NCBI RefSeq assembly: GCF_039539965.1
Contig: NZ_BAABED010000001.1
Coordinates: 372,001 to 436,000 of the forward strand
DNA from: Arthrobacter methylotrophus
GTDB lineage: Bacteria > Actinomycetota > Actinomycetes > Actinomycetales > Micrococcaceae
Reading direction: 5' to 3'
Length of the DNA stretch: 64,000 nucleotides
Numbering within the stretch: position 1 is the first letter of the stretch; each line of letters starts with the position of its first letter. Made by a program: the position numbers and the translations under genes. The notes below the pieces were generated by a model that was not told where the DNA came from, ran no database searches, and worked only from the letters and a program-made list of their open reading frames with translations. Below are positions 14,157 through 45,824 of the stretch, piece after piece.

Positions 14157-14173
14157 CTTAAGGGAACCTTTAA
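14157..14173 (+). promoter_or_regulatory. CTTAAG-N5-CTTTAA direct repeat, candidate response-regulator site
   Basis: CTTAAGGGAACCTTTAA places two similar hexamers exactly 11 bp apart, the spacing typical of OmpR/PhoB dimers. It lies 61 bp upstream of the small secreted peptide gene. Similar spacing occurs at 32243 and 45797. Confidence 0.5.
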
Positions 14174-14233
14174 CATGGCTCCGTAGCCTGTGAGCGTAAC
14201 CCTCCGGATTTTAACAGCTCAAAGGAGCACTGT

Positions 14234-14419
14234 ATGAAGAAATTCGCCGCCACCCTTCTCATGACCGGTCTGCTGGCTATTGGCGGATTTGTCACTCCTG
14301 CCAACGCTGCGCCGAAGACCCCCAACGTCACTACAACCACCACAACCACGACGGTTACCACCGTTCCTGTTGTGACTGACCCGGTGCACTACGCGTCGAT
14401 CGGCTGGTGGCCCAACTAA
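14234..14419 (+). CDS. Small secreted Thr/Val-rich peptide
   Basis: A 61-aa product with AAAGGAG upstream of its ATG. Residues 1-26 form a clear signal peptide (MKKFAATLLMTGLLAIGGF, then a PANA-A cleavage site). The mature ~35 residues hold a run of eight Thr, then VTTVPVVTDPVHYASIGWWPN. No family recognised. It sits between a response regulator and its probable kinase, behind a candidate regulator site, and ends in a strong terminator, so it looks like a regulated, exported effector or signal. The last codons and stop come from the family-A repeat at 14411. Confidence 0.72.
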   Translation: MKKFAATLLMTGLLAIGGFVTPANAAPKTPNVTTTTTTTTVTTVPVVTDPVHYASIGWWPN

Positions 14420-14476
14420 CTAGCACTTGATGTCGTTTAGACGCCTCATAACGACAATAACTGCTAGCTACTTGGG
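14411..14476. repeat. Family-A palindromic repeat, copy 4
   Basis: CCCAACTAACTAGCACTTG at the left and CTGCTAGCTACTTGGG at the right, with GTCGTT...AACGAC in the middle. It provides the stop of the secreted peptide gene (CCC AAC TAA), the same phase as in the GNAT gene at 4336. Confidence 0.85.
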
Positions 14477-14493
14477 TGGACGCACAATTCCTA

Positions 14494-14529
14494 CATCGCC
14501 CCGGGCCACCGCCCGGGGCGATGTTTTTT
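14494..14529 (+). terminator. Rho-independent terminator
   Basis: Perfect 13-bp arms, CATCGCCCCGGGC and GCCCGGGGCGATG, enclose a CACC loop and are followed by six T. It ends plus-strand transcription from the secreted peptide gene, just before the convergent kinase gene. Confidence 0.93.
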
Positions 14530-14533
14530 GCCC

Positions 14534-16201
14534 CTAGTTCCTGGTATTGAGGGGGAGCCGGACCGAGACGGTGGTTCCCACTCCGAGCCCGGACTCGATA
14601 TCCAGCGCGCCGGAATGGCGCTCCACAATGTCGTGGACTATCGCGAGGCCAAGGCCGCTCCCGGGGATAGCCGCCGTAGAGGCGTTCGAAGCGCGGAAGA
14701 ACCGCGTAAACACTTGGTCGATTTCCTTTTCGGGAATTCCGACGCCGGTGTCCTCCACACGCACCACCACGCTGGGAACCGGGTCCGGGGTGATCTCGCT
14801 GCTGACGGCGACATGGCCGCCGTCAGGGGTGAATTTGATGGCGTTGCTGATGATGTTGGAAAAGACCTGCTCCAGCTTGGCCTCATCGGCCTGTACCGTC
14901 ACGGTTCCTGGCGCGTGCGCCACGGTGAGCGACAGCGAACGGGACTCGGCGAGGGGCTGCAAGGCCGAGACAACGAGCCGGAGCATGGTGCCCACATTCA
15001 CGGGGCTCAAGTGGAGTTCACCGGAGCTGTTCTGGTGCGAGACGGTGAGCATGTCCTCGATGAGCCGGCGGAGGCGCTCGGCGTTTCGTGAAATGACGTC
15101 GACCATCCGCTCCACGCCCGCGGGAATCGCTCCACCGGCGCCGCTGCGGATCATGTCCAGATAAGCCGTGATTGAGGTCAGAGGCGTTCGGAGTTCGTGG
15201 TTCACCGTGGTCAGGAAGTCGGTCTTTGCCTGGTCCAGTTCCTGGAGTTTGTACATGACCTCCTGTTGTGCGCCTATCAGGTGGCTTTGCATCAGGCCAT
15301 AAGCCAGGTTCCCCGATACGTGCTGGATCAGGCCAATTTCGGCCCGCGTCCATTCCTGTGCCGTGTCCGGGCGGGCGATCCAGATGACCCCCAGAACAAG
15401 ATCTCCCTCGCCTACCGGCACAACAACAGAGGCCGACGGCGCATGGGCGCCACCCGGCGCACGCGCACCATCGGGCTGCCCCGGCAGAGCCCGCCGAGGC
15501 AGCGGCTGAACCTCCGCTTCGGCCCACAGGTGCTCCGCCACTTCGAACCTGGTCACCTCGTCGGTGAGCTCGACAGGCAGGACTCCGTGGGCCAGGCCAG
15601 GAGCGTTCCATTCGGCACTGACCTGCGGTACGCGGGCGTCCGGGAACGTGGTGAACCAGACGTGTTCCGCGCCCAGGGCGTCGCCGATTCCATCCACCAG
15701 ATGCCGGGCGATCTGCGCTGGATCGATGGTTGACCGGATCGCCGAGGACACCTTCCGCAGGCTTTCCCTCAGTGATTCGGTTTCCGCGCGGCGGCGCATC
15801 CTTTCGCTGGCCCGGGCAATCAGTACCAGTGCCCTGCTTGCCCGAACGGCCGGGGGCTGGCCACTGTACACAAAATCCGCGATGGTCCATGCTTCCAGCG
15901 CGGAAACATCAAGCTCGTCGTCCGGGTCCAGCATGAGCAGAACAGGGGCAACATTCCGGGGAAGCAGATCCCGGAGCCCGTTGTCCACCACCAGCACGTC
16001 ACTCGGCTCGCTCTCCAGCGCGGCTGCAAGCGAGCCGGCGTCGGACGCTGAACGAACCACGAACCCCGCGGAGGTGAGCGCCGCGTTGGTCTCCGCGCGA
16101 CGGATCGGATCGGGGTCGGCCACCAAGGCACTCTTCGGCACCGAGGCGTCGATAGTCAAGCGACTCTCCACTACGCTCCTACTGTTCGATTCGGCTCCCA
16201 T
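14534..16201 (-). CDS. Soluble sensor histidine kinase with pseudo-receiver and GAF domains
   Basis: A 555-aa kinase from ATG 16201. Residues ~20-135 look like a receiver (ALVADPDPIRRAETNAAL, DVLVVDNGLRDLLP), but the phosphorylation site reads VVDN and the end is atypical, so it may not be phosphorylated. Residues ~170-320 are GAF-like (GDALGAEHVWFTT ... LVLGVIWIARPD). Then come the HisKA motif VNHELRTPLTS and a complete HATPase (EQVFSNIISNAIKFT, DTGVGIPEKE, GSGLGLAI). There is no transmembrane segment, so it should sense a cytoplasmic signal. It is convergent with RR1, its likely partner. The start is not supported by a clear ribosome site. Confidence 0.85.
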   Translation of the reverse strand: MGAESNSRSVVESRLTIDASVPKSALVADPDPIRRAETNAALTSAGFVVRSASDAGSLAAALESEPSDVLVVDNGLRDLLPRNVAPVLLMLDPDDELDVSALEAWTIADFVYSGQPPAVRASRALVLIARASERMRRRAETESLRESLRKVSSAIRSTIDPAQIARHLVDGIGDALGAEHVWFTTFPDARVPQVSAEWNAPGLAHGVLPVELTDEVTRFEVAEHLWAEAEVQPLPRRALPGQPDGARAPGGAHAPSASVVVPVGEGDLVLGVIWIARPDTAQEWTRAEIGLIQHVSGNLAYGLMQSHLIGAQQEVMYKLQELDQAKTDFLTTVNHELRTPLTSITAYLDMIRSGAGGAIPAGVERMVDVISRNAERLRRLIEDMLTVSHQNSSGELHLSPVNVGTMLRLVVSALQPLAESRSLSLTVAHAPGTVTVQADEAKLEQVFSNIISNAIKFTPDGGHVAVSSEITPDPVPSVVVRVEDTGVGIPEKEIDQVFTRFFRASNASTAAIPGSGLGLAIVHDIVERHSGALDIESGLGVGTTVSVRLPLNTRN

Positions 16202-16224
16202 GGGAGAGCTTACTATCGAGAACG

Positions 16225-18459
16225 CTACTTGAGCCCCGCACCGGGCAGCAGTTCGACGGCGCCGAGTGCATCCGCGACGAAGGCGTAGTCCCAAGCACGC
16301 TCGCGCCACTGAACGTAGCGCCCCGAAGCTCCGCCGTGTCCACCGTCCATTTCGATCTTCATCACGATCGGCGCTGTCCCTGTGGTCTCCGAACGGAGCA
16401 CCTGGACCCACTTGGCGGGCTCCACGTAGAGCACGCGTGTGTCGTTGAAGGACGTGACAGCGGCGATCCGGGGGTAGGCGGCGGCGCGGATGTTCTCGTA
16501 AGGGGTGTAGGACTTCATGTAGTGGTACACCTCGGGATCGGTGATGGGGTTTCCCCATTCCTCCCATTCAAGAGCCGAGAGCGGCAGATCCGGGTCCAGG
16601 ATGGTGTTCAGCGCGTCGACGAACGGCACGGCGGCCACGATCGCCGCGTATTTCTCCGGTGCGAGGTTCGCCACGGCACCCATCAGCAGGCCGCCTGCGG
16701 AGCCGCCCATAGCGGCAATCCGATCCGGCGCCGCCCAGCCGGAGGACGCCAGCCAGTCCGTTGCCGCGATGAAGTCCGTGAAGGTGTTTTTCTTGTTGAG
16801 CTTCTTCCCGTCGTCATACCAGCGCCGGCCGAGCTCGCCGCCGCCGCGGATGTGGGCGATCACCATGACGATTCCGCGGTCCAAGAGGGACAGGCGCGCC
16901 ACGCCGAAACCCGGATCCATGCTGACCTCGTAGGAGCCATAGCCATACACCAGGCCCGCAGCGCTTGAATCCTGCTTCACGTAAACGTGCCGGAGCACGG
17001 ACAAGGGCACCCGGGTGCCGTCGGCCGCCGTCGCCCATTCCCGGGTGGCCACGTAGTCCGAGGCGGTGTACCCGCCCAGTACCGGGCTTTCTTTCCGCAG
17101 CAGCAGTTCGCCTTGCGGCAGTGCGGCGGTGGGCAGCACAAAGTCGTACACCCGCGACGGCGTGAAGAAGGACGTGTAGCCGATCCGGATCACCGGGGCC
17201 TCATAGTCGGAACCCGCCACCCCTGCCGTGTACAGCTCCTCGTCGAAGGCAGGCTCAACAGCCGGGCCCTGCGCCGCGGTTCCCAATCCAGCGAGCGGCA
17301 GCACCTGCACGCGCTCGATCGTGTCCTGCCGTACCGCCACCACCAGATGCGTCGAGGTAACGCCGGCACCGTTGACGCGAACGGCGTCGGAATGCTCGAC
17401 GACGGTGCGCCAGCGCTGCTCGGCCAGCGGCTTGGCGAATTCGGCCGGGTCCGCGATGGAAACCATCGAGTTGATGGCGTCCTTGTTGTGCGTCAGGAGG
17501 ATGGTCTCGGTCTTTTGTCCATCGGCGCCGTCCATGAGGAACGGCTCGGCCTCGTAGAGAATGTGTTCGTCGCGGGAAATCACGGTGGACAGACCGGCAT
17601 CGACCTCGTCGAAGCGCAGCAGGCGCGTCTCGCTGAACTCCGAGCAGCCGATGCTTAGCACGAGGTACCGCCGGTCGGAGGAGAGCTCGAACCCGAGCCA
17701 CATGGCGACGTCGTCCTCCTGGTAGATCACCTGGTCCTCGCTGACGGGCGTTCCCAGGACGTGCGACTTCACCTGGTAAGGCCGCCAGGCGTCGTCCACC
17801 ACGGTGTAGAAGATCCGGGTGCCGTCGGGGGAGAAGGCCACGCCGTAGAAGATGTTCTCGATGACGTCGGGCAGCAGTTCGCCTGTCCGCAGGTCCTTGA
17901 TGCGGAGGGTGAAGCGTTCCTCGCCGGAGTTGTCCACAGCGTAGGCATAGAGGTTGCCGTCGACCGTCACGGCAGTGCCGCCAATGGAGAAGAACGGCTT
18001 GCCTTCCGCCTCGGTATTGCCGTCCAGCAGGACTTCTTCGCCGGGGAGTTCGACGCCGGCTTCCACCACGGGCGGGGTCCAGTCCGCCACCGCATCGCCC
18101 GAGTTTGCAGCCCGGACACGGCAATGGATCCCGTACTCCTTGCCCTCGACGGTGCGGGTGTAGTACCACCAGTGGTCCTTGCGGCTGGGGACCGAGAGGT
18201 CCGTCTCCTGGGTACGGCCCTTGATTTCCTGGAAGATGGCCTCGCGCAGCGGTTCCTGGTGCGCGGTAACGGCCTCTTGGTAGGCGTTTTCGGCCTTCAA
18301 ATGCTTGATGACCTCGGAGGACTCCTTGTCCCGTAGCCATTCGTAATTGTCCACGAAAACATCGCCGTGGTGCTCACGGGTGCTGGGCACCTTTTTGGCG
18401 ACGGGGGCAGTGGGGCCCTTCGCGTGGGACGGCTGGGCGGAACCGGGAGTATGGGTCAT
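16225..18459 (-). CDS. ptrB: S9 prolyl oligopeptidase family protease (oligopeptidase B)
   Basis: A 744-aa cytoplasmic serine peptidase that should cleave short peptides after Arg/Lys. The N-terminal part includes VFVDNYEWLRDKES, the family's usual opening, followed by a beta-propeller of ~350 residues. The C-terminal alpha/beta-hydrolase domain carries the nucleophile in AAMGGSAGGLLMGAV and the catalytic His near GHGGASGR. ATG 18459 gives the standard oligopeptidase B length. It ends 23 bp before the kinase gene's start on the same strand, so co-transcription is possible. Confidence 0.9.
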   Translation of the reverse strand: MTHTPGSAQPSHAKGPTAPVAKKVPSTREHHGDVFVDNYEWLRDKESSEVIKHLKAENAYQEAVTAHQEPLREAIFQEIKGRTQETDLSVPSRKDHWWYYTRTVEGKEYGIHCRVRAANSGDAVADWTPPVVEAGVELPGEEVLLDGNTEAEGKPFFSIGGTAVTVDGNLYAYAVDNSGEERFTLRIKDLRTGELLPDVIENIFYGVAFSPDGTRIFYTVVDDAWRPYQVKSHVLGTPVSEDQVIYQEDDVAMWLGFELSSDRRYLVLSIGCSEFSETRLLRFDEVDAGLSTVISRDEHILYEAEPFLMDGADGQKTETILLTHNKDAINSMVSIADPAEFAKPLAEQRWRTVVEHSDAVRVNGAGVTSTHLVVAVRQDTIERVQVLPLAGLGTAAQGPAVEPAFDEELYTAGVAGSDYEAPVIRIGYTSFFTPSRVYDFVLPTAALPQGELLLRKESPVLGGYTASDYVATREWATAADGTRVPLSVLRHVYVKQDSSAAGLVYGYGSYEVSMDPGFGVARLSLLDRGIVMVIAHIRGGGELGRRWYDDGKKLNKKNTFTDFIAATDWLASSGWAAPDRIAAMGGSAGGLLMGAVANLAPEKYAAIVAAVPFVDALNTILDPDLPLSALEWEEWGNPITDPEVYHYMKSYTPYENIRAAAYPRIAAVTSFNDTRVLYVEPAKWVQVLRSETTGTAPIVMKIEMDGGHGGASGRYVQWRERAWDYAFVADALGAVELLPGAGLK

Positions 18460-19767: not shown

Positions 19768-20893
19768 GCCTCTGTGTGTCAAGCAGCCGGCTTTTGGGCT
19801 TGGTGGTGGTCGTGCAGGATCCGCCGGTAGAGGACATTGGAGAGGCGTCGCTTGAGTGCCCTACGTGCTTCGCGGGGTGTCTTTCCTTCGGCGGTTTTCT
19901 TCAGGTAGTACTCCCGGCCTGGTCCCGGGTCACGGCTTTGGCACACGGCCATGGTGTGCAGCACGGAGTTGAGCTGCCGGTTGCCTCCGGTGTTGAGTCT
20001 GTGACGGTTTTGTTGACCGCTGGAGGCGTCCAAGGGTGCTGTTCCGGTGTAGCTGGCGAAGTGTGAGGCGCTGGGGAATCTGGTGATGTCGCCGCCGTGG
20101 CCGAGTAGTTTTGCCGCCAGGACGACACCGACTCCTGGGATCTCCTGCAGGGTGGTGGCCGACGCGACCAGAGCGTCGCGAGTTTGTGCCTCGTTGTTCT
20201 TGATACCGGCATCGATACGCCGTAGATCGGCCAGCAGTTCCCGGGCGAGCTCGCGTCTGAGTGCATCGGTGGCTGTTGCGGGCCGGATGGTACGCAACGC
20301 GGCGGCGGCCTTGTCGGCACTGAGGCCGGGCTCAACACATCCAGGGATAAGCTCGCGCAGAAGCCGGTGCAGCCGGTTGAGCAGCCGGGCCCGTTCGTGG
20401 CCCAGGTCTTCGCGGCGTTCGGCCAGCAGGCGCAGAATCGTACTCTGGTCTTCTGCATTTACCGCGGGCAGATTCTCCTGTCGGAGTGCAGTGACGGCAA
20501 CGGCGAACGCATCGGCCGGGTCACCCTTGCGGCCACCGCCGGTGGAAAGGACTCGGACCTTCATGGCCAGTGTCGAGGGAACATCCACAACGGACTCTCC
20601 GCCGGCCACAAGGATCTGGGCAATTTGTCGACCGAGGCCGTTGGCACCCTCGATAGCGAATCTGCGTTCGGGCCATTGCGCCGCCCAGCCCAGCAGTTGC
20701 TTGGCAGTGCCTGCGTTGACCACGAAACGCCGCACCGCGAGCTGACAGCCCGAGGAGTCGATGGCTGAGGCGGTGATGGAGGATTTATGCGGGTCGATGC
20801 CGATAACGATCACTTCCGGGGTTCCTTTCGCCGATGTCGGTGATGAATCCCCCGTGGCGGGCACCCTGACTTGAAGTGTTTGCATGCCTCTGT
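19768..20893 (-). mobile_element. IS110-family insertion element, ~1.1 kb
   Basis: An intact-looking IS110-type transposase fills this stretch. The octamer GCCTCTGT occurs at both edges (19768-19775 and 20886-20893), each preceded by TGACTT. These could be core or target-site copies, since IS110 elements lack long inverted repeats. The right edge directly joins a second, decayed transposase gene. The exact ends are a guess from this repeated octamer. Confidence 0.6.
19779..20813 (-). CDS. IS110-family transposase (DEDD/Tnp20)
   Basis: 344 aa from GTG 20813, which has AAGGAA upstream; an ATG at 20885 in the same frame would add 24 residues. The N-terminal RuvC-like DEDD domain starts VIVIGIDPHKSS, with AIEGANGLG and KGDPADAFAVAVTAL holding further acidic residues. 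The C-terminal Transposase_20 domain has LQEIPGVGVVLAAKLLGHGGDI, and the conserved Ser region is ASYTGTAPLDASSGQ. The frame is intact, so the element may be active. Family members are guided by a bridge RNA from a non-coding end. Confidence 0.9.
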   Translation of the reverse strand: MIVIGIDPHKSSITASAIDSSGCQLAVRRFVVNAGTAKQLLGWAAQWPERRFAIEGANGLGRQIAQILVAGGESVVDVPSTLAMKVRVLSTGGGRKGDPADAFAVAVTALRQENLPAVNAEDQSTILRLLAERREDLGHERARLLNRLHRLLRELIPGCVEPGLSADKAAAALRTIRPATATDALRRELARELLADLRRIDAGIKNNEAQTRDALVASATTLQEIPGVGVVLAAKLLGHGGDITRFPSASHFASYTGTAPLDASSGQQNRHRLNTGGNRQLNSVLHTMAVCQSRDPGPGREYYLKKTAEGKTPREARRALKRRLSNVLYRRILHDHHQAQKPAA

Positions 20894-20907
20894 CGAGCCA
20901 CGCCCCG

Positions 20908-21413
20908 GGCGGGTGTCAGCGGCGCGGCACGCTATTACGGCAAACCCCTCGCGGACAAAGAGTTCCTGGCGGTGGGCTCCGGATACCGGAAGATCCTGGA
21001 GTTCATCACCAGCCACGGGACGGTGACCGCCTTAGGGGTCGAAGGAACAGGATCCTACGGGCCGAAATCGCCAGAACCCTGCGCGGTGAGGGTCTTTGTG
21101 TGCTGGAGGTGAACCGCCCAAACCGGGCCGCGCGCCGGCTGAAGGACAAATCCGATCCGCTGGATGCCTACCAAGCCGCCCAATCGGTACTTGACGGCCG
21201 GACCAAATCGATCCCCAAGGCCAAAGACGGGCCAGTTGAATGCCTGCAAATCATGCGGGCCGGGCGGACCTCTGCAGTTAAAGCCCGCACCGCAGCCATC
21301 AATCAGATCAAGGGACTTCTCGTTTCATCCCCGGACAACCTCCGGGCAAAATACCGAGGGCTGGGAACCTCGGCGATGATCACGGCCCTCCGGCGCACCC
21401 GACCTTCGGGCCA
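20908..21413 (+). pseudogene. Decayed second IS110-family transposase (N-terminal half, frameshifted)
   Basis: The frame starting AGVSGAARYYGKPLADKEFLAV runs to VEGTGSYG near 21060, then continues in another frame as AEIARTLRGEGLCVLEVNRP ... KDKSDPLDAYQAAQSVLDG ... NQIKGLLVSSPDNLRAKY ... ITALRRTRP. The joined product is the DEDD half of an IS110 transposase; the Transposase_20 half is missing. Adding one G to the GGG at 21059-21061 restores the frame, but the gene would still lack both ends. It is not close to the intact transposase next door. Confidence 0.8.
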
Positions 21414-21418
21414 GCAAC

Positions 21419-21562
21419 GACGGACGCAGGGCTCTTCCTCCCGATGCTCAAGCCAAAACGAGGTGGCCCTATACGCTGATCTACGTTCTCGGATACGCCT
21501 TCATGGCCATCTACATCGCAACCATCAACGGAACCGTCCCCTTGGAACCAACTCTTCCCTAG
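21419..21562 (+). pseudogene. C-terminal remnant of an unidentified membrane protein
   Basis: An open frame of about 47 codons ends at TAG 21560-21562. It contains a hydrophobic stretch, YTLIYVLGYAFMAIYIATI, then NGTVPLEPTLP. There is no start or upstream part; it abuts the truncated transposase. It looks like the surviving tail of a gene interrupted by insertion. Family not identified. Confidence 0.35.
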
Positions 21563-21646
21563 CTAGCCACCGGCGGGCGCCGTCAGTGCGCACCGCGCAT
21601 CCAGGACGCCCGCAATTGCACGTACGGTGACCGAAGTTAGCATCGC

Positions 21647-32138: not shown

Positions 32139-32242
32139 AGCCCTGTTTTGGCGGCCAACCAACGCGTGCCAGCTTTAGCTTTGGATTTCCCAAAGTTTTG
32201 CTCAAGATTCGGCTAAATCCGGAAGAAAATTCCTCGGCAAAC

Positions 32243-32270
32243 ATTAGTTGTATCTTTAAGTTTTCTTAAT
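32243..32270 (+). promoter_or_regulatory. 11-bp-spaced repeats upstream of the SipW/TasA-like operon
   Basis: ATTAGT (32243), CTTTAA (32254) and CTTAAT (32265) are exactly 11 bp apart. The last two match the pair at 14157-14173 closely. They end 63 bp before the signal peptidase start, a sensible place for activation by an OmpR-type regulator. Confidence 0.5.
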
Positions 32271-32332
32271 GCCGGGCCAGCAAAGTAGATCTTGTTCCGC
32301 TACACGGTCTCAAACGAAACGGAAACGTCCCC

Positions 32333-32953
32333 ATGGACAGCTCTCTTAGCTCTGGCACGGGTCCCCGCCTGGGGGCGAGGACCCGCCAACGTATCTCCGC
32401 ACGCCGGGTGCTCCGCATGATCGCGACGACGGCCGCGACGCTCGCGGCAATGGCCTTCCTTGCGGTCGGTGTCGTAGCCCCGCTGCTGCACATCGGATTC
32501 TCCCCGGTCCTGACTGGCAGCATGCGCCCGGCCTACGCTCCCGGGGACCTGCTCATTACGGCACCGGCCGACGTGAGCAGCCTCCGTCCGGGCCAGATCG
32601 CCGTCTTTACGCCTCCGGGTGAAAGCGTCCCGTTCGCCCACCGCATCACCGCTATTGCCGGCACCTCGTCTAAACCGATCCTCACCACCAAGGGCGATGC
32701 CAACCCGGCCCCTGACCACTGGCAGGCTGTCCTGGACCAGACTCAGGTGCCGGTGGTCGTCGCCGTCGTTCCCTCGGTAGGAAGCGCCCTGCTGTGGATC
32801 GAAAGTCCGCTCCAACGGGCCCTCCTAACGGCCTTGTTCGGCCTGACGGTCACCGGATCCGCTGTCTGGTGGATCCTCCGAAGCAGCCCTGCCTCATCGG
32901 AACGCCACACATCGGGCCACTCCGGCCGCCGTCGTGCCGTCCACGCTCTTTAA
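32333..32953 (+). CDS. sipW: SipW-like signal peptidase I (ER/archaeal type)
   Basis: A 206-aa membrane protease. Transmembrane helices are near residues 30-55 and 145-175. The catalytic Ser is in PVLTGSMRPAYAPGD. The general-base position carries His, not Lys, in PFAHRITAIAG, which marks the SipW/ER-type subgroup. It should process the specialised signal peptides of the two secreted proteins encoded directly downstream. The Arg-rich N-terminus (RTRQRISARRVLR) orients it with the active site outside. Confidence 0.87.
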   Translation: MDSSLSSGTGPRLGARTRQRISARRVLRMIATTAATLAAMAFLAVGVVAPLLHIGFSPVLTGSMRPAYAPGDLLITAPADVSSLRPGQIAVFTPPGESVPFAHRITAIAGTSSKPILTTKGDANPAPDHWQAVLDQTQVPVVVAVVPSVGSALLWIESPLQRALLTALFGLTVTGSAVWWILRSSPASSERHTSGHSGRRRAVHAL

Positions 32954-32990
32954 AAACCCATCCCGCACCACCTCTCATAAAGGATCTGCC

Positions 32991-33665
32991 ATGTCTGAAA
33001 TCAAAGCCCACCGCGCCGCCCGCTCCACCCGCCGCCCCACCCCGGCCGTGTTCGCCGCCTGCGCCGTGGCAGCTGCCGGCCTGGCAATCACCGGCGGCGG
33101 CGTGTTCGCAGCCCTGAACGCCACCGCCTCCAACACCACCGCCCAGAACGCTACTTCCGGCACCCTGAGCCTGACCATGGCAAACAACGGAGCCGGGTTC
33201 GGCCAGTCGGTCTCCAACCTGGCTCCCGGCGACATCGTGAACCGCTACGTCAACCTCACGCAGGGCGACACCATGGACGCCAAGGCCCTGACCCTGGCGG
33301 TCGCAGACGGCACCCCGAGCAAGCTCACCACCGACGCCACCAAGGGACTCCACGTCACCGTCACCCAGTGCTCCGGCACCTGGACCACCACCGGTGCCGG
33401 CGCCTGCACCGGAACCGGTGCCACCACCACCGTGCTGGCGACGGGCGTGCCCCTCAGCTCCCTCACAGCGACGCCCTCCACGCTGATCGCCGGCACGGTC
33501 GCAGCAAGTTCCACCCTGAACCTCCAGATCTCCCTGGCCCTGCCGGACCAGAACGAAACCACGGTCAACGGAGTCCTTCCCGCCAGCCCCATCCAGGGCC
33601 TGGCCTCGGCGCTGACCTGGACCTTCGGCGAAACCCAGCGCACCTCCACGGTCGTCGGAAGCTAA
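32991..33665 (+). CDS. TasA/camelysin-like secreted protein with SipW-dependent-type signal
   Basis: A 224-aa protein from ATG 32991 (AAAGGA upstream). The long Arg-rich N-terminus and hydrophobic stretch (VFAACAVAAAGLAITGGGVFAAL) followed by NATASNTTAQN is typical of SipW substrates. The mature part is Thr/Ala-rich, with SGTLSLTMANNGAGFGQSVSNLAPGDIVNRYVNL, the recurrent TasA/CalY beta-strand pattern. Relatives form biofilm fibres in Bacillus; whether this one polymerises is unknown. It lies between its predicted peptidase and another secreted protein. Confidence 0.8.
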   Translation: MSEIKAHRAARSTRRPTPAVFAACAVAAAGLAITGGGVFAALNATASNTTAQNATSGTLSLTMANNGAGFGQSVSNLAPGDIVNRYVNLTQGDTMDAKALTLAVADGTPSKLTTDATKGLHVTVTQCSGTWTTTGAGACTGTGATTTVLATGVPLSSLTATPSTLIAGTVAASSTLNLQISLALPDQNETTVNGVLPASPIQGLASALTWTFGETQRTSTVVGS

Positions 33666-33671
33666 GAACGA

Positions 33672-34280
33672 GTGAACGTGCACCACTACACCAGCAGGGC
33701 TGCTGCCGCCATCGCGGCCGCGGTCCTGCTGGCGTGCACGTCTACACCAGCCCAGGGCGCCACCATAGCCACCACCTCCACCGGGTCGCAGCAGGCCGTG
33801 GGCAGCGGTAAGTGGGGAGCCGTCGTAACGCCGGACTCTGCCGCTACCTACGCCCCCAGCCCCGTCCCACTGAAACTTACATTCCGGAACTACGGCCACC
33901 CCTCGAGCCCTTCGTTCACACCCCAGTTCTTCACGGTCGGGAACACGGGAAACCTGCCCATCACGGCGGCAAGCTACGTCACCAGTACGGTGGCCCAGGC
34001 CAGCGTGAGATTCATTGTTGAATCCTGCAGCATCGGATGGGACGAACCCAGCGGAACGTGCCCGGGAGGAACAGTGGAGCAGGTCCTGGCAACAAAATTC
34101 GGCCCCGACTCCGAAACCACCCCCGGCCCCGCCCCGGCAACCCCCGGAACAGGCCTCAGACTTCGAGCCAGGGTCGAAACCAACGGAAATGTGACCCCCA
34201 ACAACTACGATCCGGCCCTCACCATCAGCACCAACGTCGACCGCACCCAGGTCCGGACCGCGACAAACAACGGGAGCTGA
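33672..34280 (+). CDS. Secreted protein of the SipW locus, function unknown
   Basis: A 202-aa product from GTG 33672, 6 bp after the TasA-like stop. A signal sequence (SRAAAAIAAAVLLACTSTPAQGA) is followed by a Thr/Ser/Pro-rich mature chain with LKLTFRNYGHPSSPSFTPQFFTVGNTGN, a beta-sandwich-like pattern. Two Cys (VESCSIGWDEPSGTC) may form a disulfide. No family recognised with certainty. By position it is a partner or minor component of the TasA-like structure. Confidence 0.72.
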   Translation: MNVHHYTSRAAAAIAAAVLLACTSTPAQGATIATTSTGSQQAVGSGKWGAVVTPDSAATYAPSPVPLKLTFRNYGHPSSPSFTPQFFTVGNTGNLPITAASYVTSTVAQASVRFIVESCSIGWDEPSGTCPGGTVEQVLATKFGPDSETTPGPAPATPGTGLRLRARVETNGNVTPNNYDPALTISTNVDRTQVRTATNNGS

Positions 34281-34338: not shown

Positions 34339-34743
34339 ATGGCAGCCACACCACGGCGGGAAGACTTCCAGCCCGACGCCCTGCTCGACCTCGCAGACCA
34401 GCTGCAATGCACCACCATTCCCAGGCGATACGCACTGACCTTCCTGGACATGCTCCAGATGCGGGTAGAACGCATCCTCTCCGCCACCGTCAGCAATGAC
34501 ACCGAGGACGCCATGGACGCCGTCCTCAGCCTCAAAGTCAACGCCCACATGGTCGGTGCACGCTCGATAGCGGAAACCTGCAACGGCCTTGAACAAAACA
34601 TCCTTGACGGCGACATGCCAGTGGCAGCACGTAATGCGCGGACCCTTCGCGGCAACATCGGCACCCTCAAAACCGCCATGCACGATTTTCTCTCGTATGC
34701 GCTGAAGGAATCCGCGAGCAAGGTTAGTGCACCAGGCTGCTGA
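34339..34743 (+). CDS. Hpt-like four-helix protein lacking the phosphotransfer His
   Basis: 134 aa, helical, cytoplasmic. The pattern FLDMLQMRVERILSAT ... AMDAVLSLKVNAHMVGARSIAETCNGLEQNI matches the Hpt domain, but where Hpt proteins have His three residues before the conserved Lys (AHxLKG), this one has Leu (VLSLK). It therefore should not carry phosphate. A similar protein with the same change is at 45862. It follows the SipW locus by 58 bp and may be its last gene. A role as an adaptor or decoy for a response regulator is inference. Confidence 0.72.
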   Translation: MAATPRREDFQPDALLDLADQLQCTTIPRRYALTFLDMLQMRVERILSATVSNDTEDAMDAVLSLKVNAHMVGARSIAETCNGLEQNILDGDMPVAARNARTLRGNIGTLKTAMHDFLSYALKESASKVSAPGC

Positions 34744-38201: not shown

Positions 38202-38267
38202 AGACGCTCGCTCACTAGAGGTGAGCGAGCGTTCCGTGTGTAGCCGCGAAAGCTGAGGGAGCGTCGC
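38202..38267. repeat. Family-B palindromic repeat, copy 4
   Basis: GACGCTCGCTCACTAGAGGTGAGCGAGCGTTCC forms a near-perfect hairpin with a 4-base loop, followed by a related half-copy ending GAGGGAGCGTCG. The flanking 38028-38201 and 38268-38363 stretches hold no recognised gene. Confidence 0.83.
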
Positions 38268-38363
38268 GTTCCGTTTGGAGCAGGGGTGGGGGGTTAGTTA
38301 GTGCCCGACGGCGGGAGGCTCGTTGCGCTGGAGTGTCCCCTCTGAATGAAGCTCGCCGCCGCC

Positions 38364-38459
38364 GACGCTCGCTCACCTTTGGGGCGTTTCCCGCGGACGC
38401 TCGATCACTTGAGGTGAGTGAACGTTCCGTGTTTTGCCGTCATAGGTGAGCGAGCGTCG
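38364..38459. repeat. Family-B palindromic repeat, copy 5
   Basis: A full-length unit: GACGCTCGCTCACCTTTGGGG, GGACGCTCGATCACTTGAGGTGAGTGAACG, and a final GTGAGCGAGCGTCG. It is nearly the same as copy 3 over its first half. Confidence 0.85.
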
Positions 38460-38490
38460 TTTTCGGTCGGGGGCAGGCGGGCTGGAACCG

Positions 38491-38557
38491 CAGGATTTCC
38501 CAAGCTTTGGCCTAAGAAATGCGCAGGATCGCGAGTCTTCCCACAGGATGTCCCAAG
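38491..38557 (+). promoter_or_regulatory. Repeated CAGGATnTCCCAAG motif upstream of flp
   Basis: CAGGATTTCCCAAG (38491-38504) and CAGGATGTCCCAAG (38544-38557) differ at one base and are 53 bp apart, about five helical turns. They lie 90-156 bp before the pilin ATG. They could be a regulator's paired sites controlling the Tad locus. Confidence 0.4.
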
Positions 38558-38646
38558 GATTGCGCCGTGGGGAGTTGGGCGTTGCTAGCTTGCTTGTGAG
38601 CTGGTGCTGGACCAGCCCACATCCTCAACTCGCTCAGGAGTTTCAC

Positions 38647-38874
38647 ATGTTTGCTTTCTTCTCCAACGCCGCATCGCGAATCCGTCGTGACGAAAAGGGC
38701 GCCACCGCCGTCGAATACGGCATCATGGTTGCCCTCATCGCCGTCGTCATCATCGTCGCCGTCACTGCCCTCGGTGGGACCGTCAAGGACACGTTCACCC
38801 AGGTCCAGTGTTCGGTGTCCGGCAAAACCACCTACGCCGCAGGAGCGACTGCCGGCACTGGCGCCTGCCCCTAG
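38647..38874 (+). CDS. flp: Flp-family type IVb pilin
   Basis: A 75-aa pilin from ATG 38647, with CAGGAG upstream. The short leader ends at the class-IVb processing region KGATAVEYGIMVALIAVVIIVAVTAL, with the conserved Glu-Tyr pair (GxxxxEYG) at the start of the mature hydrophobic helix. The C-terminal part has two Cys (QCSVSGK ... GACP) that may pair. It is the major subunit of the Flp pilus built by the Tad genes downstream. A hairpin follows before tadE. Confidence 0.9.
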   Translation: MFAFFSNAASRIRRDEKGATAVEYGIMVALIAVVIIVAVTALGGTVKDTFTQVQCSVSGKTTYAAGATAGTGACP

Positions 38875-40404: not shown

Positions 40405-41175
40405 GTGAAGTCACGCTTGTTGGCCGGATCGTTAGCAGCAGTGCTGGCGATCGTCGGGGTGATTCTCGTCTTCTCCTATGCCCAAGGCGCGGATCAACGG
40501 GCGGTTCAAAACCTGGCTCCGGTTGACGTTTTGGTCGTTAAAACGGCGATTCCTGCCGGTACTCCGGTGGAAGCCATGAAGGATTCCGTGGTCTCGCAGC
40601 AGCTGCCGGGAACGGCTGTCCCAAAAACCGCGCTGCACACGTTGGCGGACTCGCCAGGCAAGGTGGCCGCCGTCGACCTTGTCCCGGGCGAGACGCTGGT
40701 GGCCGAACGCTTAGTAGCCCCCGACGCCCTAAAGACTTCGGGCGACGTCAAGGTGCCCGCAGGGCTTCAGGAGGTCTCGTTTCAACTGGAACCGCAGCGG
40801 GTGGTCGGGGGACGGCTGGTTCCTGGTGACCACATTGGAATATTCATCTCGATGGGCACCGGTGGAATCGAGGCGAAACCGGACAAGCAAACTACCGAGT
40901 TGGCGATCCACAAGGTGCTTGTGACCGCGGTCCAGCGTGCGCCCCAAGCCGGTGCGAGCGCGCAGCCGACGCCGAATCCCAGTTCCGGTGCGGCGGCTGA
41001 TCCCAACGCCAGTGCACTTCCCACTGGATCCCTCCTGCTGACCGTTGCCGTCAACGATGTGGACGCCTCCAAGATCGTTTTCGCGTCGGAGTACGAGAAG
41101 ATCTGGCTCAGCAAAGAACCGTTGGATGCCAAAGACAGTGGCCCCACCGTCATGCAGCAGAGTGGGGTATACTGA
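40405..41175 (+). CDS. cpaB: CpaB/RcpC-type pilus assembly protein
   Basis: 256 aa from GTG 40405. One N-terminal membrane helix (LLAGSLAAVLAIVGVILVFSYAQ) is followed by a SAF domain with VLVVKTAIPAGTPVEAMKDSVV and PGETLVAERLV. The rest resembles the CpaB C-terminal beta domain (PQRVVGGRLVPGDHIGIFIS). It acts in the periplasm-equivalent space, guiding Flp pilus assembly. It overlaps cpaE by one base (TGATG). Confidence 0.88.
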   Translation: MKSRLLAGSLAAVLAIVGVILVFSYAQGADQRAVQNLAPVDVLVVKTAIPAGTPVEAMKDSVVSQQLPGTAVPKTALHTLADSPGKVAAVDLVPGETLVAERLVAPDALKTSGDVKVPAGLQEVSFQLEPQRVVGGRLVPGDHIGIFISMGTGGIEAKPDKQTTELAIHKVLVTAVQRAPQAGASAQPTPNPSSGAAADPNASALPTGSLLLTVAVNDVDASKIVFASEYEKIWLSKEPLDAKDSGPTVMQQSGVY

Positions 41176-42368
41176 TGAGCCGCTTTGTCTTGATCACCCC
41201 CAGTACCGACTTTGACTTACGGTTGCGTCAAGCCGTTGCCGGGGGCCTGCCCGGAAGCGTGCAGACCTTTTTCACGAGCATCTTGCCGGCTGATCCGGCC
41301 GAGCTGTTTGGCGCCCTTGACCAGGAACAACTCGAGGTCCTGATCCTGGGACCCGACGTGCCCGTTGATGACGCCCTGCGCCTCGCCAGGGTTTTCGATG
41401 TGCAGTTGCCGGAGCTGAGCGTCCTCCTTGTGAGTGAGCTGGACCCCGAATTCGTCCTCCAAGCCATGCGTTCCGGAATTCGAGACATCATGAGCCCGGC
41501 CGCGGACCTGGCCCAGATCCGGGTCATGCTTGAGCGCGCATGCCAGTCTTTCGCTAGCCGTCAGCGCACCATGGAATCTCAGCAACCAGACTCCCGGAAG
41601 GGCTTGGTGATCGGTGTCTTCTCTCCCAAAGGTGGGGTGGGCAAGACGACAATTGCCACGAACATTGCCGTGGGGCTGGGCAAGATCGCGCCGATGGGCG
41701 TCGTGATCGTCGATCTGGACTTACAGTTCGGCGACGTCGCGTCCGGGCTCTACCTCAATCCGGAACACACTGTTACTGACGCCGTCACGCCGTCGGCCAG
41801 CCAGGATTCCCTGGTGCTCAAGGCCTTTCTCACGGTTCACCCGGCAAGTATCTACGCTTTGTGCGCGCCGAATGACCCCGTAGAAGCTGACGAGATCTCG
41901 CCGGAACAGGTGCGCCGCTTGCTCGAACAGCTTGCCGAACAGTTCCAGTATGTGGTGGTGGACACCGCCCCCGGACTACCTGAAATCGGGCTCGCAGCCC
42001 TCGAACAATGCTCGGACGCTGTTTGGGTGACGGGCATGGACGTTCCCAGCGTCCGGGGCCTGCGCTCTGGACTGGACATCCTCCGCCGGCTGAACCTGTT
42101 GCCGGAAACCCGGCATGTGGTGCTCAACATGGCTGATTCAAAGTCCGGTTTGTCGGTCCAGGATGTCGAGTCGACTGTCGGCGCACCCGTGGATGTGAGC
42201 ATCCCCCGGTCTAAGGCCGTTGCGTTCTCCACCAACAGGGGAATTCCCGTGCTTCAGGAGGCTGTGAAGGATCCGGCTGTCAAGGGACTCAAGCAACTGG
42301 TGGAACGCTTCAACCCTGCGTGGCGTGCTACGGCCCAGCGCAAACTTCACAGGAGGGTGGTGGTGTAG
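41175..42368 (+). CDS. cpaE: CpaE/TadZ-like localisation ATPase
   Basis: 397 aa. Residues ~1-125 form an atypical receiver-like domain (FVLITPSTDFDLRLRQAV ... EVLILGPDVPVDDALRLAR ... SGIRDIMSPAADLAQ) without the usual acidic pocket. The MinD/ParA-type ATPase follows, with the deviant Walker A FSPKGGVGKTTIATN and VIVDLDLQFGDVASG. CpaE/TadZ proteins place the pilus machine at a cell site. It is in the same operon as cpaB and cpaF. Confidence 0.9.
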   Translation: MSRFVLITPSTDFDLRLRQAVAGGLPGSVQTFFTSILPADPAELFGALDQEQLEVLILGPDVPVDDALRLARVFDVQLPELSVLLVSELDPEFVLQAMRSGIRDIMSPAADLAQIRVMLERACQSFASRQRTMESQQPDSRKGLVIGVFSPKGGVGKTTIATNIAVGLGKIAPMGVVIVDLDLQFGDVASGLYLNPEHTVTDAVTPSASQDSLVLKAFLTVHPASIYALCAPNDPVEADEISPEQVRRLLEQLAEQFQYVVVDTAPGLPEIGLAALEQCSDAVWVTGMDVPSVRGLRSGLDILRRLNLLPETRHVVLNMADSKSGLSVQDVESTVGAPVDVSIPRSKAVAFSTNRGIPVLQEAVKDPAVKGLKQLVERFNPAWRATAQRKLHRRVVV

Positions 42369-43904
42369 ATGAAGCTGTCTGAACGCTTGCGCGCTGCCGA
42401 GGGTAAGATCCACGCATCCACCGGCACAAATGTCCATGCTTCGGTACAAAGCGAGCCGGAACCGGGCATGCCCCACGCATCGAAACCGACATTTGCCGAG
42501 TCCACGAAAGTGCCTGGGCCGAATCCCGCCGGGAAAGTCGCCGGGGCCGTACCCCATATCTCAGTCAAGCTGTCCGACCATCCGGACTCTCCCAAGGCGA
42601 AGGCGCCGCAACCGGTGGACGCCTTCGCTGCGCTCAAGGGTCGCGCCGCAACCGCATTGTTTGAACGCCTGGGAACCAGGTTCAACGACTCGAGCGTGAG
42701 CGAACACGAGTTGGGGACAACAGCGCGGGAGGAACTCACTCGGATCATCGACGCTGAGCAGGTCCCCCTATCCGCCGATGAGCGCAGCCGGCTCGTAGCG
42801 GACGTGGCAGACGACGTCCTTGGTTATGGTCCGCTCCAACGCCTGCTGGACGATCCGGACGTCACGGAAATCATGGTCAACAGGATGGACCAGATCTACG
42901 TCGAAAGGAAAGGCAAGCTGATCCTCACGGATTCCGGATTCAGTTCGGAGGACCATCTCCGGAGGGTCATTGAACGCATCGTTTCGAAGGTGGGACGCCG
43001 GATCGACGAATCGTCCCCGCTCGTTGACGCACGCCTTGAAGACGGTTCGCGAGTCAACGCCGTGATCCCGCCTCTTGCGGTTGGGGGATCATCGCTGACC
43101 ATCCGAAAATTCAGCAAAGTGCCATTGACCATTAGGAACCTGATCGATTTCGGCACGCTCACGCCCGAGATGGCCGAACTCCTCAATGCTTGCGTCAAGG
43201 CGAAACTGAACATCATTGTTTCCGGAGGTACCGGAACCGGCAAGACCACCCTGCTGAATGTTCTTTCGTCGTTCATCCCGGAGGACAACCGCATCGTCAC
43301 CATCGAGGACGCGGTCGAACTTCAGATCCAGCAACAACATGTGGTCAGGCTGGAGAGCAGGCCCCCGAACACAGAGGGGAAGGGCCAAGTGACCATCAGG
43401 GAGTTGCTCCGGAACTCCCTCCGTATGCGTCCGGACAGGATCGTCGTCGGCGAGGTCCGTGGCGGAGAGTCTCTCGACATGCTGCAGGCCATGAACACAG
43501 GCCACGACGGCTCCCTCTCAACGGTCCACTCAAATTCCCCTCGTGACGCCGTCGCCCGCTTGGAAACCCTGGTGCTCATGGCGGGCATGGACTTGCCGTT
43601 GCGCGCTATCCGGGAGCAAATTGCGTCCGCAGTGAATCTGATCATCCAAATTTCCCGTTTGCGGGACGGGACGCGCCGCATCACGCATGTGACTGAGGTC
43701 CAAGGCATGGAAGGCGATATTGTCACCCTCCAAGACGCCTTCGTTTTCGACTACTCGGCCGGCGTTGATAGTCATGGGAAGTTTCTTGGCAGGCCAGTGC
43801 CAACGGGTATCCGTCCGCGGTTCATCGACCGCTTCGACGATCTGGGCATTCGAGTCTCTCCCGAGGTCTTCGCCGCACCCCTGGCAATGACAGCAAAGGC
43901 GTGA
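42369..43904 (+). CDS. cpaF: CpaF/TadA secretion ATPase
   Basis: 511 aa. It starts directly after the cpaE stop codon. A non-conserved ~95-residue N-terminus, rich in Pro/Lys, precedes the secretion-ATPase core: GYGPLQRLLDDPDVTEIMVN, Walker A IIVSGGTGTGKTTLLN, Asp box, and Walker B RPDRIVVGEVRGGESLDMLQAMNTGHDGSLSTVHSNSP. It powers Flp pilus assembly as a cytoplasmic hexamer with TadB and TadC. Confidence 0.94.
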   Translation: MKLSERLRAAEGKIHASTGTNVHASVQSEPEPGMPHASKPTFAESTKVPGPNPAGKVAGAVPHISVKLSDHPDSPKAKAPQPVDAFAALKGRAATALFERLGTRFNDSSVSEHELGTTAREELTRIIDAEQVPLSADERSRLVADVADDVLGYGPLQRLLDDPDVTEIMVNRMDQIYVERKGKLILTDSGFSSEDHLRRVIERIVSKVGRRIDESSPLVDARLEDGSRVNAVIPPLAVGGSSLTIRKFSKVPLTIRNLIDFGTLTPEMAELLNACVKAKLNIIVSGGTGTGKTTLLNVLSSFIPEDNRIVTIEDAVELQIQQQHVVRLESRPPNTEGKGQVTIRELLRNSLRMRPDRIVVGEVRGGESLDMLQAMNTGHDGSLSTVHSNSPRDAVARLETLVLMAGMDLPLRAIREQIASAVNLIIQISRLRDGTRRITHVTEVQGMEGDIVTLQDAFVFDYSAGVDSHGKFLGRPVPTGIRPRFIDRFDDLGIRVSPEVFAAPLAMTAKA

Positions 43905-43911
43905 GCGAACC

Positions 43912-44844
43912 ATGATGCTGTTGACTGGAATGGGTTTGATGCTTTCAGCCATCCTGCTCCTTGGGATGGCCGTGATCTTGCCGAAAACCCCCGAGGTTCC
44001 GCTGGATCGCCGGCGGCCCTACCAGGTGAATTCGGGGTCCCAGCTGACCCGCTTTGCAGGTTCGGCCGCCGACGTCCTCCACAGGTTTCTGACGAGGCGC
44101 AACGTTCAGTTTTTCAACCGTGAAGAACTGGAAAACGCCGGTCTGCGCATGAGCCAAGCGGACTTCTTTATCCTCATGATCGCCGGCGCATTCGTGGGTG
44201 CGTTGATCGGACTCGTCGTCGGCGGGCCCGTCGTCGCCATCTTGTTCTTCATTCCGGCGCCCATCGTCGCGCGGCTGATCACCCGGTTCCTGTCCGGGAA
44301 ACGACGGGCGAAGTTTGACGATCAGCTCGGTGACACCCTCCAACTATTGTCCGGCGGCCTGCGTGCTGGCCACAGCATCCTTCGTGCCATCGACGCCGCA
44401 GCCACCGAGTCACCCAGCCCGACGTCCGAGGAAATGCGCAGGATCATCACAGAGACAAGCCTGGGCCGTGACCTGCAGGACTCGCTTAACGACGCCGCGG
44501 AACGGATGCGGAGCGAGGATTTTGTCTGGATAGCCCAAGCTATCCAAATCAACCGTGAGGTGGGCGGAAACCTTGCAGAGGTGCTGGACCAAGTGAACGA
44601 AACCATACGCGAACGCAGCGAGATCAAGGGACACATCAAGTCCCTTGCAGCCGAGGGAAAGTTCTCGGGATACATCCTGATGGCGCTTCCCTTCGGCATC
44701 GTGACCATGCTGATGCTTGTCAATCCGGGGTACATGAACGTGATGTTTACCCATCCCCTTGGTTGGGGAATGATCGTGGCGTCCGTCATCCTCATGACTA
44801 TTGGCGGTCTCTGGATGCGCAAGATCATCGACTTGAAGTTCTGA
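43912..44844 (+). CDS. tadB: TadB-like inner-membrane pilus protein
   Basis: 310 aa with membrane helices near residues 1-22, 90-125 and two at the C-terminus. The T2SSF domain spans roughly 145-270 (LGDTLQLLSGGLRAGHSILRAID ... EVGGNLAEVLDQVNETIRER). It forms the membrane platform with TadC. The gap to cpaF is only 7 bp. Confidence 0.9.
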   Translation: MMLLTGMGLMLSAILLLGMAVILPKTPEVPLDRRRPYQVNSGSQLTRFAGSAADVLHRFLTRRNVQFFNREELENAGLRMSQADFFILMIAGAFVGALIGLVVGGPVVAILFFIPAPIVARLITRFLSGKRRAKFDDQLGDTLQLLSGGLRAGHSILRAIDAAATESPSPTSEEMRRIITETSLGRDLQDSLNDAAERMRSEDFVWIAQAIQINREVGGNLAEVLDQVNETIRERSEIKGHIKSLAAEGKFSGYILMALPFGIVTMLMLVNPGYMNVMFTHPLGWGMIVASVILMTIGGLWMRKIIDLKF

Positions 44845-44850
44845 GGCGAC

Positions 44851-45735
44851 ATGAATCCCCTTTTCCTCCTTGCCCTGCTGCTGGTTCCTTTGCCTATCGC
44901 CTATCTCGCATGGTCCATTCTGTCGGTTGACCGCAAGGGGCAAAGCGTCGTGAGGGAGCTCTTGGCGCGAGGTGAAAGCGTTGCCGGGGAAGGGCCAAAG
45001 AAGCGGGGTGGCGCACTCGATGTCATCGGCTATCGACTCACCCCTGGAAGCTACGTGCAGAAGCTGGACAGGCTGATCTCCCTGGCGGGCCGTCCGCCGT
45101 CGCTCCCTTTGGGGCGCGTCCTCGCAGCCAAGCCGGCCCTGGGATTGTGCGGTGCGCTTTTTGGCTTTTTAATTAGTGCCAACAGTTCAAGCGGGATCAT
45201 CAAACTCGTCGGGATATTTGTTGTATTACTTGGCTATTTTATTCCGGATCTGCTGCTTTACAGCAAAGGGCAGGAGCGTCAAAAAGCCATGCAATTGGAA
45301 CTCGCAAACACCATGGACCAAATGCTGATATCTGTAGAAGCAGGGCTTGGTTTTGAAGGGGCAATGGCACGCGCCGGAGAAAACGGGAAAGGCCCTCTCG
45401 CCGAGGAGTTGGTGCGGACGCTGCAGGACATGCAGGTAGGACGTAGCCGGCGCGATTCCTACCTTGCACTGGCCGAACGCACCAACGTTCCTGAGCTCCG
45501 GAGCTTCGTCCAGGCTGTGATCCAAGCCGACGCGTACGGTATTGCCATCAGCCGGGTCCTCAGGGTCCAAGCGAAGGTGATGCGGGTGAAGCGCCGCCAA
45601 CGTGCCGAAGAGAAGGCTATGAAGCTTCCGGTGATGGTTCTCTTCCCGCTTCTGCTCTTCATCTTCCCAGTGCTGTTCATCGCCATTCTGGGTCCGGCCG
45701 TCATCAACACCATAGCCAGCTTCAGCGGAGGCTGA
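44851..45735 (+). CDS. tadC: TadC-like inner-membrane pilus protein
   Basis: 294 aa with an N-terminal helix, two central helices (ALGLCGALFGFLIS, IIKLVGIFVVLLGYFIP) and a C-terminal pair (MVLFPLLLFIFPVLFIAILGPAVINTI). The T2SSF domain includes LANTMDQMLISVEAGLGFEGAMARA and LPVMVLFP. It is the partner of TadB, starting 6 bp after it. A short AT-richer patch occurs at 45165-45250. Confidence 0.9.
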   Translation: MNPLFLLALLLVPLPIAYLAWSILSVDRKGQSVVRELLARGESVAGEGPKKRGGALDVIGYRLTPGSYVQKLDRLISLAGRPPSLPLGRVLAAKPALGLCGALFGFLISANSSSGIIKLVGIFVVLLGYFIPDLLLYSKGQERQKAMQLELANTMDQMLISVEAGLGFEGAMARAGENGKGPLAEELVRTLQDMQVGRSRRDSYLALAERTNVPELRSFVQAVIQADAYGIAISRVLRVQAKVMRVKRRQRAEEKAMKLPVMVLFPLLLFIFPVLFIAILGPAVINTIASFSGG

Positions 45736-45796
45736 GCGCAACATAGCATTCCTCAATTTAAGCGATCTGGGACAAAAGAAGATAAATCAAGAAATG

Positions 45797-45824
45797 CCTA
45801 AGATTTCCTTAAGATAAGCATAAG
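45797..45824 (+). promoter_or_regulatory. Three 11-bp-spaced CTTAAG-like repeats upstream of the second Hpt-like gene
   Basis: CCTAAG (45797), CTTAAG (45808) and CATAAG (45819) start exactly 11 bp apart; each keeps TAAG. This is the clearest case in the window of an OmpR/PhoB-type direct repeat. It ends 37 bp before the ATG at 45862. Confidence 0.6.

Follow-up and report, generated by a model that had tools for sequence, protein, structure and literature searches.

We propose that tandem 11-base-pair (bp) direct repeats in four promoters of Arthrobacter methylotrophus are the shared operators of one subfamily of OmpR/PhoB-type response regulators (RRs) that includes RR1, RR2 and two paralogues, a reading that the sequence comparisons below make probable. 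The repeats lie in a stretch of 64,000 nucleotides (hereafter the window; contig NZ_BAABED010000001.1, positions 372,001 to 436,000), upstream of genes for a secreted peptide, a sipW-like signal peptidase, a Flp/Tad pilin and an Hpt-like protein (hpt2). A first-pass annotation had reported CTTAAG-like hexamers at 11-bp spacing before three of these loci. That an 11-bp direct-repeat motif is common to all three, with counterparts in relatives, held up; its wording did not, CTTAAG appearing to be a local variant of a broader head-to-tail unit, about CNYARGRTTNC, with CTCAAG or CACAGG as the generic form. All three loci hold arrays, and the set needed a fourth member, the flp pilin promoter (38489-38563). 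Placement also shifted: the stronger sipW array (32168-32211) lies above the hexamers first noted there, and the peptide array is a minus-strand one whose third unit falls within the RR1 end. Conservation and the broader motif, rather than hexamer counts, carry the case; the shared motif, its phase, its conservation and its link to RR genes are computed results.

14141..14173, minus strand: candidate operator array 1, before the peptide gene, TTAAAGGTTCC CTTAAGATCTG CTCAGTTTTCC; spans the hexamers noted at 14157 and 14168, third unit inside the RR1 end
32168..32211, plus strand: candidate operator array 2, before sipW, GCCAGCTTTAG CTTTGGATTTC CCAAAGTTTTG CTCAAGATTCG
32243..32275, minus strand: sipW hexamers of the first-pass annotation, weak in the window (matrix scan and relatives' upstream DNA)
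38489..38532, plus strand: candidate operator array 4, before the pilin gene, absent from the first-pass annotation, CGCAGGATTTC CCAAGCTTTGG CCTAAGAAATG CGCAGGATCGC
38542..38563, plus strand: candidate operator array 4, second part, CACAGGATGTC CCAAGGATTGC
45786..45829, plus strand: candidate operator array 3, before hpt2, ATCAAGAAATG CCTAAGATTTC CTTAAGATAAG CATAAGTTCGG

An 11-bp unit common to four promoters

The period emerges when no motif is assumed. In a motif-free test of lags 5-23, scored by mean self-identity and by the best 28-bp match, lag 11 was highest by both measures in the sets of hpt (n = 23), flp (n = 18) and sipW (n = 12) upstream sequences, followed by lag 22 (tied with lag 10 for mean identity in the flp set), and the same sequences taken 300 bp further upstream gave no lag-11 peak. 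In the peptide set, lag 11 gave the highest best local match (mean 11.3 of 20). Direct repeats of about 11-bp period, the mark of OmpR/PhoB operators, are thus present, and weak in the peptide set alone. The letters vary with the promoter: CTCAAGGTTTC CACAGGATC-type repeats stand upstream of hpt in many species, CRCAGGAT units upstream of flp, and CTTGAT units upstream of sipW in several. The hpt set leaves out the homologues L027, L038-L042 and L045; a separate scan of these gave arrays in L040-L042 (p 0.005), a weak one in L027 (p 0.035) and none in L038, L039 and L045. From the flp set, 8 of 26 loci were excluded by eye as second copies or partial matches (L107, L112, L113, L117, L120, L121, L124, L130), and all 18 that were kept encode Flp pilins. 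One locus in which no peptide gene was seen (L090) is excluded from the peptide lag and matrix sets and included in the count of 16 RR1 loci given below.

Matrices built from other genomes recover the same positions. With a matrix from 20 hpt and 14 flp promoter sequences, drawn from species outside the close relatives of the window used there and run over both window strands, the top seven three-unit matches comprise one each at sipW and the peptide, two registers at hpt2 and three at flp. This training set includes flp sequences from a few relatives that have RR1, which gives more weight to a second matrix, built only from the 20 hpt sequences of other species and likewise run over both strands. 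Its six best matches are at sipW (32179), the peptide (14141, minus strand), the hpt-like gene (45786 and 45797) and the Flp/Tad pilin (38489 and 38531); the highest scores, 20.8 at sipW and 20.3 at the peptide, fall on promoter kinds absent from training, and the seventh match, elsewhere, scores 7.6. The last three units of array 2 (32179-32211) are the best three-unit match in the window with both matrices, and the three units of array 1 score 19.1 with the combined matrix. That matrix also gives array 4 as the best four-unit match in the window (29.1) and its second part as the second-best two-unit match (17.5), the latter within the hpt-only match at 38531.

Outside the window, the genome was scanned as a 1.2-Mb sample plus chosen loci. 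Three-unit positions scoring at least 17 with the combined matrix numbered 3, in 2 places, in the sample, against 5, in 4 places, in the 64-kb window, where periods 9, 10, 12 and 13 gave none. The few positions in the sample indicate that the genome as a whole is not rich in such arrays.

Reading the sequence confirmed all eight hexamers at the coordinates first given: CTTAAG (14157) and CTTTAA (14168) at site 1; ATTAGT (32243, 3 of 6 letters), CTTTAA (32254) and CTTAAT (32265) at site 2; and CCTAAG (45797), CTTAAG (45808) and CATAAG (45819) at site 3, where a fourth unit, ATCAAG, is added at 45786. Their strength is uneven. We counted CTTAAG-N5-CTTAAG over the 64 kb on one strand (CTTAAG being its own complement) and in 60 first-order Markov sequences. 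Pairs with at most one mismatch occur twice, both in site 3, against 0.05 expected, and pairs with at most two occur three times, site 1 being added, against 0.35 expected. As CTTAAG pairs, then, site 3 is far above chance and site 1 moderately so, and only site 3 is clear. Three-unit runs with at most six mismatches number 8 against 2.9 expected, all 8 in or overlapping the three named regions; other periods (6 to 20) give counts of 2-9. Three further CTTAAG-N5-CTTAAG places in this genome (C1:119844, 3534647 and 3574784) are about 2 kb or less from other OmpR-type genes.

Conservation at the individual promoters

45850..45855, plus strand: putative -10 TAGCAT of hpt2, six bases before the ATG (column conservation)
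45862..46317, plus strand: Hpt-like protein 2, without the phospho-acceptor His (PF01627, E 2.3e-4; alignment)
34339..34743, plus strand: Hpt-like protein 1, without the phospho-acceptor His (PF01627, E 7e-7; alignment)

The expectation that sites would be conserved in related genomes is clearly borne out at hpt2, where, in 11 aligned genomes, the array is kept while upstream DNA drifts: invariant columns make up 30 of 44 in the array and 5 of 49 immediately above it. The third unit reads CTCAGG in G136 and G105 and CTTAAG in the other aligned genomes, which suggests that the CTTAAG hexamer is one state of a wider unit. All nine columns of 45847-45855, the GTAGCAT region, are invariant in this alignment, and many other species have GTAGCCT; the start of hpt2 appears to be leaderless. 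Matches to the hpt-like gene occur in 27 of 39 genomes, this one included. Hpt-like protein 2 scores 21.8 bits to PF01627, under the curated cut-off of 24.6. At the phospho-acceptor position, which we take to be marked by an HxLKGSS motif, none of the 31 aligned rows has His (29 have Leu or Ile, one Val and one Gly), so that by that test these are not working phosphotransfer proteins. The Hpt-like proteins (34339-34743, 45862-46317 and L017-L045) have a common DA-x-x-S-L-K-like motif.

13299..14150, plus strand: RR1, OmpR-type response regulator (receiver and winged helix; Pfam PF00072, PF00486)
14234..14419, plus strand: secreted peptide of 61 amino acids ending GWWPN (translation)
14534..16567, minus strand: HK1, sensor kinase (GAF, HisKA, HATPase_c; Pfam), real start probably further in

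Conservation likewise holds at the peptide promoter. A close RR1 (E <1e-140) is found in 16 of 198 genus genomes, with 12 candidates scored per genome, and the minus-strand peptide array is kept in 15 of these 16 orthologue loci (p <=0.01). The exceptional locus, in G136, has no peptide gene within 300 bp downstream. A GWWPN ending can be read downstream of 15 of the 16 RR1 orthologues. The peptide is Thr-rich and is placed between RR1 and HK1 in the window; it could be a signal read by HK1.

38586..38591, plus strand: putative flp -10 TAGCTT (similar TGCTA(A/G)CTT-type letters in relatives)
38647..38874, plus strand: Flp/Tad pilin, starts MFAFFSNAASRIRRDEKGATAVEYG...
40405..45735, plus strand: Tad pilus assembly genes, CpaB-, TadZ-, TadA-, TadB- and TadC-like (PF16976, PF13614, PF00437, PF00482, PF00482); Z/A/B/C labels assigned from domains and gene order

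Flp pilin matches occur in 187 of the 198 genus genomes. With the hpt-only matrix, 18 of 30 flp loci reach p <=0.01 and 27 reach p <=0.05; the remaining three are without the usual leader and score like shuffles. The putative -10 is followed, ahead of the pilin start, by a hairpin-like leader, GCTGGTGCTGGACCAGC, at 38600-38616, which many flp loci have in similar letters, and several copies of a GACGCTCGCTCAC-type repeat lie upstream of the pilin at 37675-38450.

32333..34280, plus strand: sipW-like signal peptidase (PF10502), camelysin/TasA-type secreted protein (PF12389) and third secreted protein (without a Pfam match)

The three-gene sipW order is kept in 7/7 loci examined. Of 198 genus genomes, 143 have a sipW match, and in 12 the match is close (E <1e-50; close sipW below). 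In the sipW set the array scores on the better strand reach p <=0.04 in 12/12 and p <=0.01 in 11/12. The sipW sites have counterparts in relatives: the hexamers first noted correspond to CTTGAT/TTTGAG-type letters in close relatives, and in more distant species sipW is preceded by minus-strand arrays. Among five close relatives, invariant columns number 22 of 44 in the forward array, 17 of 33 at the noted hexamer site and 14 of 31 in the stretch between; the distal flank has 3 of 25, and the start-proximal DNA 46 of 57.

Elsewhere in the window, an IS110-type transposase and an adjoining second partial transposase lie at 19779-21630.

Candidate binders and proposed mechanism

46341..47255, minus strand: RR2, OmpR-type response regulator, convergent with hpt2 (Pfam)
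47378..49063, plus strand: HK2, sensor kinase (HisKA, HATPase_c; Pfam)
L132:3494-4324 and L133:3218-4048: RR3 and RR4, RR genes almost identical to each other, with similar upstream DNA and arrays

The first-pass annotation had attributed the repeats to one or both OmpR-type regulators encoded here, and the link to OmpR-type genes is upheld. The subfamily of RR1 and RR2 includes two nearly identical paralogues elsewhere in the genome, RR3 and RR4, which have arrays 200-240 bp above the start (scores 17.6 and 16.4). Other genomes supplied 14 homologous RR genes; a plus-strand array stands at -190 to -272 in 11 of them (p <=0.01), and a twelfth has a weak minus-strand match. These arrays tie the motif to the RR1/RR2 OmpR-type family. 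An RR2-like reading frame also stands beside hpt in 23/23 loci of the hpt set. Most RR2 homologues begin to align near residue 31, so the true start of RR2 is probably near 47165. In the RR2 recognition helix, one position has Thr in 13/13 CTTAAG-clade genomes examined and Val in the 20 other sequences; by alignment, this is presumably the position of PhoB Val197. That residue is named as thymine-contacting in excerpts of one paper (PMC3973317). Possibly, operator (CTCAAG to CTTAAG) and recognition helix (Val to Thr) changed in step here.

Which member acts at sipW bears on the most serious alternative. Close RR1 and close sipW share only 5 genomes. The 7 close-sipW genomes without a close RR1 were searched again with all candidates scored, and none was found, the best matches having E 3e-43 to 8e-71 and at most 54% full-length identity. 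Since these 7 of 12 genomes have sipW arrays without a close RR1, RR1 is unlikely to be the sole regulator, and its candidacy at sipW is weakened. The same observation could favour some other OmpR-type winged-helix protein of the genome, and the pool is large: 20 such proteins exceed the cut-off, RR1-RR4 included, leaving sixteen other candidates. We regard this as unlikely, although it is the best of the alternatives, given that arrays precede RR-family genes and lie in the RR1 and RR2 loci, and that 7/7 of the genomes without a close RR1 hold RR2-like proteins (55-68% identity).

A SARP, or another protein with an OmpR-like DNA-binding domain, might instead bind the arrays. SARPs use repeats spaced 11 or 22 bp apart, according to the parts available of PMC10936776, and the one SARP gene detected in this genome lies some 2 kb away from the best array found outside the window (four units, minus strand, L183:16104-16147, which is C1:3834104-3834147). 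This SARP is, however, matched in 9 of the 198 genus genomes; G012 and G022, which have hpt2 and sipW arrays, are not among them, nor are the genomes that supplied the 20 hpt training sequences. On this distribution the one SARP found was rejected as a general binder, other SARPs not having been searched for, and we judge the explanation improbable.

Less credible still is that the repeats are AT-rich promoter or helix-phased curvature elements instead of a specific operator. The three hexamer regions are indeed AT-rich, with 38-48% G+C against 62% in the window, but curvature is a poor fit because the unit has a G+C-rich core (CACAGG, CGCAGG) in flp and many hpt promoters; lag 11 stands out, moreover, and neither at hpt2 nor at flp does the array include the putative -10. 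Chance similarity, which the chance-level hexamers of site 2, the moderate excess at site 1 and the strict pair's lack of genome-wide enrichment might suggest, can practically be set aside in view of the lag-11 peak, the hpt2 and peptide conservation, and a matrix trained on other species' hpt promoters that finds all four promoters.

Several observations weigh against shared operators of the RR1/RR2 subfamily. Some concern the hexamer. Pairs with at most three mismatches, which include site 2, number 10 against 6.5 expected, so that site 2 alone is not above chance, and over the whole genome the phased pair shows no excess: with at most two mismatches, CTTAAG-N5-CTTAAG occurs at 21 places in 5.08 Mb against 135 for the reversed pattern. 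A hexamer-only genome search was dropped as proof for that reason, and the case cannot rest on the hexamer alone. Others concern the period. Lags 13 and 15, not 11, lead in mean identity in the peptide set; 6 of 27 flp promoters score higher with the hpt-only matrix at another period; period 12 gives 4 positions of at least 17 in the 1.2-Mb sample against 3 for period 11; and four-unit scores of at least 20 in the window comprise three period-11 positions and one of period 10. A 33-column motif model (R1, trained on 22 of 32 distinct arrays) returned three weak matches in this genome (E 0.3-3.3), one of them the sipW array.

Individual loci add to this side. Within the 90-bp scan region the peptide array is weak and needs its third unit, which is in coding DNA; sipW letters are no better kept in the arrays than between them (five relatives); the L183 array has no clear target gene; and orientation is not uniform between promoters. 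Two of the 14 RR homologues have no array upstream, 2 of 14 controls from the 300 bp downstream reach p 0.01, and the 11 array-bearing RR loci fall into few lineages. The Val-to-Thr change may be one evolutionary event, and sequences from related genomes are in general not independent.

On balance we favour the RR1/RR2 subfamily, with the arrays probably bound by RR2/RR1-type regulators. Binding itself, the direction of control and which RR acts where are what we infer from the sequences. Phosphorylated dimers of the OmpR/PhoB-type subfamily that includes RR1, RR2 and the two paralogues would sit next to each other along one DNA face, on tandem 11-bp half-sites, two to four or more in a row and in either orientation. 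In the likeliest division of labour, RR2-type regulators would serve the Tad pilin, hpt-like and sipW promoters, RR1 the peptide promoter, and the paralogues the promoters of their own genes; cross-regulation is likely because the recognition helices of RR1, RR2 and the paralogues are alike. From the start of the last unit to the TAnnnT -10 the distance is 31 bp at hpt2 (TAGCAT) and 33 bp at flp (TAGCTT), a spacing that would fit activation from beside polymerase.

With one small OmpR-type family as the likely binder, pili, fibre-like proteins and peptide may be controlled together. A more speculative extension, which we offer tentatively, is a genus-wide surface programme in which one RR subfamily and its 11-bp arrays would jointly control Tad pili, SipW-processed fibre-like proteins, the peptide and the subfamily itself, tuned by His-less Hpt-like proteins that bind receivers without phosphotransfer. 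If bound as predicted, the arrays would form an operator code for coordinating pili and secreted matrix-like proteins in the genus, and would provide a concrete setting for the conserved His-less Hpt-like proteins.

Comparison with known operators

Activated dimers of OmpR/PhoB regulators fill half-sites that follow one another every 11 bp or so along the same DNA face, and an OmpR/PhoB-type operator is a known kind of element. A search of titles and abstract openings in one library found no report of this operator in this genus, nor of a code shared by Tad pilin, SipW-type secretion, secreted peptide and RR genes. MprA of Corynebacterium glutamicum, a two-component regulator, is OmpR-type. 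Its motif, TKTTAAGAAM, contains TTAAG; it differs in being given as a single, loose motif of 10 bp whose targets concern stress and the envelope, and the available portion of the source names no pilus or sipW link (PMC12113857). The SARP operators, exemplified by the afs box of AfsR, are direct repeats 11 or 22 bp apart near the promoter that are bound through an OmpR-type DNA-binding domain (PMC10936776, in part); the difference is that the only SARP found in this genome is matched in 9 of 198 genomes.

The PmrA/BasR box, from the OmpR/PhoB family, is similar in its letters. RR1 itself scores higher to MtrA, RpaA, KdpE and PrrA than to BasR, mostly over the receiver domain. PmrA boxes, as described in excerpts of PMC3973317, combine CTTAAG or CTTAAT with CCTAAG half-sites, head to tail and 5 bp apart, and site 3, with its CCTAAG-N5-CTTAAG, is the best hexamer fit to this pattern among the sites here. 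The boxes described there are, however, enterobacterial and have two half-sites, whereas the arrays described here have up to four and follow the genus consensus CNYARGRTTNC.

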